DNA of 64,000 bases, from NCBI RefSeq assembly GCF_031624395.1, contig NZ_JAMQON010000003.1:434028-498027 (forward strand), given 5' to 3'. Position 1 is the stretch's first letter. The number at the start of each line of letters is the position of its first letter. Positions 25,928 to 29,620 of this stretch are shown piece by piece. The DNA comes from Halomicroarcula saliterrae (lineage in GTDB: Archaea; Halobacteriota; Halobacteria; Halobacteriales; Haloarculaceae). The position numbers and the translations under genes were made by a program. The notes below the pieces were generated by a model, which did no database searches, was not told the DNA's origin, and saw only the letters and a list, made by a program, of their open reading frames with translations.

Positions 25928-27187
25928 ATGGACGGAAACGACCGCGCTATCGTCACCTTCACCGGGCTGGCCCACGCGCTCGTCCACACCTACGAGCTCT
26001 CTATTCCCATTCTCGTCGTCGTCTGGCTCACCGAGTTCCCCGTCTCGACGGCGCTGCTGGGGACTGTCGTCGCCGTCGGCTACGCCCTCTTCGGTGCGGG
26101 CGCGCTACCGGGCGGCGTGCTGACGGACCGCTACGGCTCGAACCGGCTCGTCACCGCCTGTCTGGTCGGCATGGGCGCCTCCTTTCTCCTGTTGAGCGTC
26201 GCCCCGAACGTCCCGGCTATCGCCGTCGCGCTGGGCCTGTGGGGGCTCTCGGCTAGCGTCTACCACCCCGCGGGGCTCGCGCTCATCTCGACTGGTGTCG
26301 AGGAACGCGGCAGCGGGTTCGCCTACCACGGGATGGCCGGCAACGCCGGCATCGCGCTGGGCCCGCTCGTCACCGCCCTGCTCTTGCTGGTGGCCGACTG
26401 GCGCGTCGTGGTCGCCCTACTCGTCTCTCCCGCCGTCGCCGCCGTGGCCTACGCCCGCACCGCCGAGTTCGACGAGACGGCGGCGGTGAGTCCGGAAGAC
26501 GGTGCGCCCAGTGCCGACGGCGGGGACGCGGCCGACGGCCCGCCGAACTCCCTCGGCGCCTTTCTGGCCGACAGCCGCGCGCTCTTTACCACCGGCTTCA
26601 CGCTCGCGATGCTCGTCGTGATGGCCAACGGCCTCTTCTATCGCGGGACGCTCACCTTCCTCCCGGACGTACTCGGGGGCTTTCTCCCGCCGGTCGGCGA
26701 CGTGTTCGGCCTGTTCGCCGGGAGCGCGCTCGCCGCCGAGTTCGACCTCGCGTTCTACCTCTATGCGGGCCTCCTGACGGTCGGTATCGGCGGTCAGTAC
26801 GTCGGCGGGAAGCTCACCGACCGCATCGAGACGCCGACCGGGCTGGCGGCGGTCTTTACCGGCCTCGCGGTGGTCGCCGTCCTCTTCGTCCCCGCCGCAC
26901 AGGCCGGTGTGGCGCCGCTGCTGGCGGTCAGCGCGCTGCTTGGCTTTCTCCTCTTTACGCTCCAGCCGCTCTACCAGGCCACCATCGCCGAGTACAGCCC
27001 GCCCGGCGACCGCGGGCTCTCGTATGGCTACACGTACCTCTGCTCGTTCGGTATCGGCGCGGCCGGCGCGGCTATCTCGGGGTATCTGCTGTCGGCCGTC
27101 GGCGTTCGGGGGACCTTCGTCGGTCTGGCCGCGTTCCCGCTGGTCGGGCTCGCGTTCGCGCTGGCGTTGTGGCGGCTGGACGGGTGA
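25928..27187 (+). CDS. MFS transporter
   Basis: A 419-aa major facilitator with about 12 membrane helices and an acidic central loop (about residues 175-205) between the two halves. The first half has the MFS-type loop GGVLTDRYGSNRLV (D-R-Y-G-x-N/R-R motif A), and a second copy KLTDRIETPTG opens the second half. The substrate cannot be predicted. It is coupled to the small membrane protein before it, with stop and start codons abutting, and converges with the epimerase gene with a single base between their stops. Confidence 0.88.
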   Translation: MDGNDRAIVTFTGLAHALVHTYELSIPILVVVWLTEFPVSTALLGTVVAVGYALFGAGALPGGVLTDRYGSNRLVTACLVGMGASFLLLSVAPNVPAIAVALGLWGLSASVYHPAGLALISTGVEERGSGFAYHGMAGNAGIALGPLVTALLLLVADWRVVVALLVSPAVAAVAYARTAEFDETAAVSPEDGAPSADGGDAADGPPNSLGAFLADSRALFTTGFTLAMLVVMANGLFYRGTLTFLPDVLGGFLPPVGDVFGLFAGSALAAEFDLAFYLYAGLLTVGIGGQYVGGKLTDRIETPTGLAAVFTGLAVVAVLFVPAAQAGVAPLLAVSALLGFLLFTLQPLYQATIAEYSPPGDRGLSYGYTYLCSFGIGAAGAAISGYLLSAVGVRGTFVGLAAFPLVGLAFALALWRLDG

Positions 27188-27188
27188 G

Positions 27189-28181
27189 TCACGCCTCCGT
27201 CGCCAGCTGCTCCCGTTCCCACTCGAAGTACTCCCGCAAGCCGTCTTCGAGCGGCCGGTGGTCGATGCCGAGCTCCCGTTTCGCCTTCGAGTTGTCGACC
27301 GCGACGTCCTTGCCGCTCAGGAACGCGAGCGTCTCCGCCCGGAGTCCCTCGGGCGGCGTCGCGACGCGCTCGACGACCCCCATCGCGCCGGCCATGAGGC
27401 CGAACACCGAGGACGGGGCCGTCCGGGGTGCCGGGACGCCGGTGATGTCCTCGGCCAGGGCGAACATGTCCGCCATCGTCCGCGTCTCGCCCGCGACGAT
27501 GTACTCCTCGCCCGGCTCGCCTCGCTCCATCGCCCGGACGTGTGATCTGGCGGTGTCGGCGGCGTGCTCGAACGGGAACGCCCAGTCGCGGGGGACCATC
27601 GGTAGGTCTTCCTGCAGGTAGTCCCGCAGGACGCCGCGGTTCGTCCCGTAGGGCTTGTCCCACCGCCCGAAGGCGTTGCCGGGCAGGACGACGACGAGCG
27701 GGAGCCCGTCGTCCATCATCGGCCGCGCGACCTCGTAGTGGGCCTCCCACTTCGTGCGGAGGTAGACGGGCGAGGACGGTTTCGTCGGGTCGTCGGACTC
27801 GTCGACCGGCTCATCGCCCGTGTCGTCGTAGAAACCCGCCGTACTGGTGTAGACGCCTTTCGGGACGGCCAGTTCGTCCATCAGTTCCAGCACGTTCCGC
27901 GTCCCCTCGACGTTGACGCGCTGTGCCGTGGCCTCGTTTTCCGGCCCCGGGCCGACGTAGGCCCACGCCGCGATGTGGAAGACGCCGTCGACGCCTGTCA
28001 TCGGTTCACGCAGGCTCTCTTTGTCCGTGATATCGCCCTCGACGACCGTGACCTCGCTCGGCAGATGGCTCGCGTTCGACGCCGAGCGCGTCACCCCGAC
28101 GACGTCGTGGCCGGCGTCGACGAGCTGGTGGACGACGTGTGAGCCGACTAGTCCCGTCGCGCCGGTGACGAGATACTCCAT
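27189..28181 (-). CDS. NAD-dependent epimerase/dehydratase (extended SDR)
   Basis: A 330-aa extended short-chain dehydrogenase. The nucleotide-binding motif is GATGLVGSH at residues 7-15. The catalytic pair is Tyr140 and Lys144 (Y-L-R-T-K), with Ser/Thr in YTSTAG before it. Sequence style is close to dihydroflavonol-reductase-like and hopanoid-associated sugar epimerase-type members, so the substrate may be an isoprenoid or sugar; this is not decided. GATATTTACC about 28 bp upstream of the ATG is a likely TATA box. Confidence 0.88.
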   Translation of the reverse strand: MEYLVTGATGLVGSHVVHQLVDAGHDVVGVTRSASNASHLPSEVTVVEGDITDKESLREPMTGVDGVFHIAAWAYVGPGPENEATAQRVNVEGTRNVLELMDELAVPKGVYTSTAGFYDDTGDEPVDESDDPTKPSSPVYLRTKWEAHYEVARPMMDDGLPLVVVLPGNAFGRWDKPYGTNRGVLRDYLQEDLPMVPRDWAFPFEHAADTARSHVRAMERGEPGEEYIVAGETRTMADMFALAEDITGVPAPRTAPSSVFGLMAGAMGVVERVATPPEGLRAETLAFLSGKDVAVDNSKAKRELGIDHRPLEDGLREYFEWEREQLATEA

Positions 28182-28247: not shown

Positions 28248-28631
28248 CTAGTTACGCGACCGGAGATACGAGGAGACGCCCACAGCCGTCGTCAGGATGA
28301 CGACTGCGAGCGAGAGGAACCCCAGGAACACGTCGAGCGCCATCACCGCGATACTCGCCACCACGAGGCTCAGGACGAACCAGCCGCCGGTCAGCAGGAG
28401 GAATATATCGATACGCCGGAGGATTTCGCCGTCGACCACACCTGTCGGTGCGATGCCAGCTATATAGTTCCATCCACTTCCCTTGGCGGAGGCGTCCTCG
28501 AATCGGTCGTCGTCACGCGTCTGGAGTTCTTCGACGGCAGCCTTTGCGTCGTCGGCTTCTGACGCGGAGCGAAGGCCTGCGACGCCCTCCGGCTGTGGTC
28601 CTCGTGTCATGCGACGGAGCGTCCCCTCCAT
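28248..28631 (-). CDS. Two-helix membrane protein, probably N-terminally extended ribbon-helix-helix type
   Basis: From the first ATG (28631) this is a 127-aa protein with a linker and two membrane helices at about 72-122. The frame, however, stays coding-like for 27 codons upstream of this ATG to 28712: it reads I-D-G-I-V-K-T-I-R-V-S-E-E, then PHERLAAHERGDET, which is the signature of small haloarchaeal ribbon-helix-helix/antitoxin-like proteins and runs directly into METLRR-like sequence at the ATG. No ATG, GTG or TTG exists in that stretch, which is closed by a TAA at 28728-28730. So either initiation uses ATA/ATT, or the start has been lost. Function unknown. Confidence 0.65.
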   Translation of the reverse strand: MEGTLRRMTRGPQPEGVAGLRSASEADDAKAAVEELQTRDDDRFEDASAKGSGWNYIAGIAPTGVVDGEILRRIDIFLLLTGGWFVLSLVVASIAVMALDVFLGFLSLAVVILTTAVGVSSYLRSRN

Positions 28632-28771
28632 CGTCTCGTCTCCTCGCTCGTGCGCGGCGAGTCGCTCGTGGGGCTCCTCCGAGACACGAATCGTCTTGAC
28701 TATGCCGTCTATCTGGGTGCGAGAGCGTTACGCCGGTGCCTGACCCGTTCCGAGCGAACCGCTCCGGTAGC

Positions 28772-29620
28772 TCACTCGACGAGGCGCTCGATTTCGGTCA
28801 CGAGCACGTCGCTCGCCCCGACCTGCTTGAGGTCGTTGATGGTCTCGAAGACGTGGCTGTCGTCGACGACGGCGTGGACGGCGACGTCGTCGCTCCCGGC
28901 GATGTCCATCACTGTCGGGCCGCCCATCCCCGGAAGCACGTCCTTCACGTCGGCAACTGCGTTCTCGGGGACGTTCATCATCAGATACCGCTTGCCCTCC
29001 GCCGACAGCACCGAGTGCAGCGCCATCTCGACCTGCTGGACTTTCTCGTCGTCGGCCACGTCCTCGCGGGCGAACAGCCGAACCGAGGAGGCGAGCACCT
29101 CGTCGATGATACCCAGCCGGTTCATCCGTAGCGTCGTCCCCGTCGAGGTGATGTCGATGATGCCGTCGGCGATGTCGACGTGGGGCGTCAGCTCCGTCGC
29201 GCCCGAGACCTCGGCGATGTCCACGGTGACGTCGAGGTCGGCGAAGTACGCCTTCGCTATGTTGGGGAACTCCGTGGCGACAGTGCCGCCGTCGAGGTCG
29301 TAGACGGTCTCGATGTCGCCCTCTTCCGGCGCGGCGAGCACAAGCCGGCAGCTCCCGAACTCGAGGTCCAGCAGCTCCGCCAGGTTCGTGACCTCGGACT
29401 CGCGGACCTGGTCCAGCCCGGTGATGCCGATGTCGGCCGCGCCGTCCGAGACGTACTCCGGGATGTCGGCCGCGCGGGCGTACAGCACCGTCACCTCTGG
29501 GTCGACGGTGTCGGCGTACAGCTGGCGGTCGGCTCCGTCGACGATGTGGAGGCCGGCCCGTTCGAGCAAGTCCTCGGCCGGTTCGTGCAAACGACCCTTG
29601 TTGGGGACGGCGATTCGCAT
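28772..29620 (-). CDS. hisG: ATP phosphoribosyltransferase
   Basis: A 282-aa enzyme for the first step of histidine synthesis, joining ATP and PRPP. It is the long form: the periplasmic-binding-like catalytic domain ([53 protein letters not shown]) is followed from about residue 210 by the C-terminal ACT-like regulatory domain ([22 protein letters not shown]). The long form does not need HisZ and is usually feedback-inhibited by histidine. No other his gene is adjacent, consistent with the scattered his genes of haloarchaea. Confidence 0.96.

Follow-up and report, generated by a model that had tools for sequence, protein, structure and literature searches.

In the window (the whole 64,000-nucleotide stretch of DNA that was analysed), the minus strand adjoining hisG carries a reading frame that is open back to a TAA at 28730-28728 and runs on through a membrane-protein ORF to the stop at 28248. 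Upstream of the first ATG of this frame, at 28631, there is no ATG, GTG or TTG; as the preliminary description had reported, only ATA codons are available, at 28712-28710 and 28703-28701. Translation from the second of these gives I-VKTIRVSEEPHERLAAHERGDET, in frame with the membrane-protein ORF, and the codon directly after it, codon 2, is GTC (28700-28698). The whole apparent "fusion" ORF from ATA 28703 comprises 151 residues, and the ORF from ATG 28631 comprises 127 aa. The features assigned to the locus are as follows.

28772-29620, minus strand: hisG, the upstream neighbour and synteny anchor (an intact vapBC pair follows hisG in genome G024)
28704-28740, minus strand: degraded vapB promoter/operator, from alignment to the upstream DNA of intact homologues
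28491-28703, minus strand: vapB-type (ribbon-helix-helix, RHH) antitoxin pseudogene, residues 1-71 (tblastn, 60-72% identity to intact antitoxins)
28440-28490, minus strand: junction of 17 codons, SAKGSGWNYIAGIAPTG, between the vapB remnant and the membrane gene, with no recognisable vapC
28461-28466, minus strand: TATATA, proposed TATA box, -27 to -22 from GTG 28439 (sequence match)
28248-28439, minus strand: proposed real gene for a 63-aa two-helix membrane protein, GTG start at 28439-28437 (homologues in six other genomes)

The N-terminal part of the frame is related to VapB-type antitoxins. A whole-genome search with the 151-residue query found strong matches in many haloarchaea, confined to residues 1-72 and with 60-72% identity. 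For the RHH-like part the best matches, to homologues in other haloarchaeal genomes, had E-values of 5.9e-26 (72% identity), 1.1e-24 and 1.4e-24; as judged from these comparisons the resemblance is far above chance level, in agreement with the earlier suggestion that an antitoxin-like N-terminus is joined in frame to the downstream part. The homologues of residues 1-71 are separate genes of 77-84 codons (~80 aa) with the pattern MVKTIRVSEEYHEWL...ETMEETLRRMTRGP..., and the intact antitoxin genes overlap the next gene by 4 nt (ATGA). This next gene, of ~131 codons (MIIDSSYLFDLM...), encodes a PIN domain (E = 6.4e-12) and is assigned as vapC; by sequence, then, the antitoxin gene and the overlapping PIN-domain gene form a vapB-vapC arrangement. 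When genome contigs were scanned, vapC was present in the overlapping position at 33 of 40 loci.

The window copy aligns without gaps over residues 1-71 to the VapB of haloarchaeal type II VapBC systems, which lie near the Pfam families DUF7557 (PF24434) and VAPB_antitox (PF02697). The window protein scores 13.9 bits against DUF7557, below the gathering cut-off of 25 bits, and an intact homologue itself reaches only 20.7 bits, so the subfamily sits just outside the DUF7557 model. A PDB sequence search gave nothing better than the SeqA N-terminus at E = 0.16, together with chance matches, and PADLOC gave no match for this locus. The window's own genome has two further vapBC pairs, both more distantly related and with their frames open.

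The antitoxin homology runs past ATG 28631 to residue ~71 (28491), well into the so-called small membrane protein gene, and the true boundary between the two parts therefore lies near 28490 and not, as had been proposed, at 28631. The 127-aa ORF is what a mechanical gene finder would call, ATG 28631 being the first ATG of the longest ATG-initiated ORF. This ATG, however, falls inside the antitoxin homology, at residue 25, midway through the fold; none of the homologues of either part that were read uses the equivalent position as its start, and the 64 residues from ATG 28631 to GTG 28439 are made up of antitoxin remnant and junction. We regard a gene beginning at ATG 28631 as unlikely.

Residues 89-151 are related to a distinct family of small, ~70-aa haloarchaeal two-helix membrane proteins, with 40-56% identity over 61-72 C-terminal residues in six other genomes (G113, G136, G122, G038, G322 and G383). 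Four members (G038, G113, G122 and G136) were read in detail, and all have their ATG start opposite window residue 89, the GTG at 28439-28437, so that the stand-alone start falls at the same residue. The members read differ from the window ORF in having no antitoxin-like N-terminus. A TATATA sequence, one of two occurrences within the 64-kb window, is positioned at 28466-28461 where the TATA box of a leaderless transcript starting from GTG 28439 would be expected. Leaderless mRNAs make up 72% of the protein-coding transcripts of Haloferax volcanii, and GUG is the start codon in 118 (6%) of them (PMC4983044). The starts of the homologues and the spacing of TATATA together indicate that the likely gene is 28439-28248, encoding 63 aa. 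The putative TATA box at 28466-28461 most likely directs transcription of this gene as a leaderless mRNA, with GTG 28439 as the start codon. The junction between it and the antitoxin remnant (28440-28490) is kept open by chance; a search for relics of vapC, at the junction and downstream, gave only chance-level matches (best E = 0.11).

Compared with haloarchaeal VapB, the window copy has lost its start codon, its operator palindrome, its own C-terminus and stop codon and its vapC partner, and has four invariant residues altered. The N-terminal block is present in the homologues, and all of the close intact ones have ATG where the window has ATA 28703-28701. Over the 40 loci scanned, ATG occupies this position in 38; the remaining two are a more distant member with GTG and a locus in Halomarina halobia (L123) where the start has been lost. 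In the window there is no ATG, GTG or TTG in frame before residue 25 of the antitoxin homology. At the other end, the C-terminal ~10 codons of the antitoxin, the stop codon and the entire vapC are absent, and no adjacent or overlapping PIN-domain gene is found in or near the locus.

The upstream DNA is also damaged. Intact vapB genes are preceded by a conserved block, GTAACnCTCTTnGAC, and then by a palindrome, CATATATCCnnATATAtG, a putative autoregulation site that ends a few bases before the ATG. The window retains the BRE-like GTAAC, but the TATA-like CTCTTTGAC (CTCTTnGAC) of the intact genes reads CTCTCGCAC, and the palindrome is missing 8 bp, with the loss of one half-site and a shortened spacing from TATA to start; a palindromic operator is thus no longer present. 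A scan for bacterial promoters and terminators, of a type unsuited to archaea, found nothing.

Within the coding part, 4 of the 32 invariant sites (positions identical in 20 homologues) are changed in the window (Y11P, W14R, E27G and L45R), compared with 0-2 in every other sequence. Under a two-ratio codon model omega (dN/dS) was 0.27 for the window branch and 0.061 for the rest of the tree (2dlnL 6.74, nominal p about 0.01), and for the window branch a value of 1 was not rejected (2dlnL 2.79), although this test is a modest one, with 69 codons and 21 branches tested, and the very short branches L088 and L008 also gave large values. The omega result is the weakest of the lines pointing to a dead copy. 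The remnant has no internal stops or frameshifts across its 71 codons and retains 72% identity to its best relative, indicating that the decay is recent or partial. Since the start, the promoter/operator, the C-terminus and the toxin gene have all been lost, the remnant is probably not translated and probably yields no functional protein. The start codon is a single base away from that of the homologues, as would be seen if the antitoxin gene were otherwise intact and its ATG had been misread as ATA in sequencing or assembly. One error, however, leaves unexplained the loss of vapC, the loss of the C-terminus and stop, the 8-bp deletion in the operator and the four invariant changes, and we give this explanation almost no weight.

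The same locus in relatives points to what stood there before. G024, a genome of the same genus, has an intact vapBC pair directly 3' of hisG, and the antitoxin of this pair is the sister of the window copy in the antitoxin tree. DNA homology between the window and G024 (orthologous locus L080) covers window positions 28747-28491. The placement of the G024 pair at the same site, the sister relationship and the DNA homology together suggest that such a pair once stood at the window locus; vapBC was most likely present here and has since decayed in the lineage leading to the window. In another genome, G009, the hisG interval contains neither vapBC nor the membrane gene, and an epimerase/SDR gene begins ~260 bp after hisG.

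The locus is best explained, with a probability that we put at about 0.86, as a vapB pseudogene, left from a former VapBC pair, beside an independent 63-aa membrane gene with a GTG start, the frame between them being open by chance. From homology and synteny, the ancestral state would have been a type II VapBC pair directly downstream of hisG. The toxin gene and the antitoxin C-terminus would then have been deleted, the promoter/operator would have lost 8 bp and the ATG would have become ATA, and the remnant frame would by chance have stayed open into the neighbouring two-helix membrane gene. The lesions are read directly from the DNA; the sequence of events we infer. The start-less stretch is what remains of an antitoxin gene of a type common in haloarchaea, an ordinary feature rather than a new fused protein, and neither the 127-aa ATG ORF nor the 151-aa "fusion" is likely to be more than an artefact of annotation. 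The annotation should accordingly be changed to a vapB pseudogene and a 63-aa GTG-start membrane gene, in place of the 127-aa ORF or its 151-aa extension. The locus also provides a clean case of chromosomal toxin-antitoxin decay in haloarchaea, in which the toxin has been lost and the antitoxin is dissolving while a relative keeps the pair intact at the same site.

The preliminary description had offered three readings: loss of the start codon from a former gene, fusion of an RHH domain to two membrane helices, and a start at a rare codon. The first is supported by the ATG found in the homologues at the position of ATA 28703. A functional fusion would be a membrane-tethered RHH DNA-binding protein, composed of the antitoxin N-terminus and the two helices and started at ATA 28703 or at the next codon, GTC. 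The frame is indeed open from end to end, and PMC4574771 cites a report of a leaderless mRNA in Halobacterium salinarum that uses GUC as its start codon. Yet searches of Halobacteria genomes, in which the query was either the complete protein or its membrane part, and of the GTDB r220 contigs returned no full-length homologue of the fused ORF, and no other genome searched has both parts together. Elsewhere the VapB part ends at ~80 aa, overlapping vapC, and the membrane part is separate and starts at the equivalent of GTG 28439, which speaks against a rare-codon start. The conserved promoter/operator is damaged, with a spacing 8 bp shorter, the invariant residues are altered and constraint is relaxed; in a haloarchaeal reporter test even a UUG start gave no detectable product (PMC4574771). 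A functional fusion is therefore very improbable. Equally improbable is co-option of the dying antitoxin, whereby the RHH part would be made at a low level from the ATA or GTC start and serve as a membrane-tethered DNA-binding protein. The preferred reading remains a vapB remnant beside an independent membrane gene.

The vapB copies at L123, L125 and L127 are likewise orphaned or broken and lack vapC, and their occurrence in other genomes makes the window case one of ordinary toxin-antitoxin turnover. The orphan vapB of Halomarina halobia (L123/L083) resembles the window copy in that the antitoxin body is kept while the start and vapC are destroyed; it differs in that the antitoxin's stop codon and ~10 codons of vapC survive and no membrane gene follows in frame. 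At L125, in Halopenitus persicus, the vapB frame leaves the antitoxin sequence after residue ~65 for unrelated sequence, apparently through an insertion or rearrangement, and vapC is absent. At L078 (G036) vapB is intact and the adjoining vapC is apparently frameshifted near codon 40.

The interval between hisG and the MFS transporter gene (window 25928-28181 compared with L033, L035 and L039) is variable across the genus. Some species have a convergent MFS gene directly after hisG, G009 has an SDR gene in between, and the window has an SDR gene, the membrane gene and the vapB remnant. The MFS transporter gene is whole in the window (25928-27187). In G024 (L066/L003, contig G024:C10) what is left of this gene next to vapC is approximately its first 36 codons, and there is no SDR gene; the arrangement looks like that expected from a deletion fusing vapC to the MFS gene. 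Finally, L032 and L037 share a non-coding block ~85-110 bp past hisG, with CGCAAAAATCTACGCTAAAAA and a GAAACCGCTCGCC...GGCGAGCGGTATGCTC-like hairpin. When up to one mismatch is allowed, a 21-mer from this block has 2-7 copies per genome in three members of the genus and no copies in the reversed control, and the block resembles a dispersed repeat or an RNA element.
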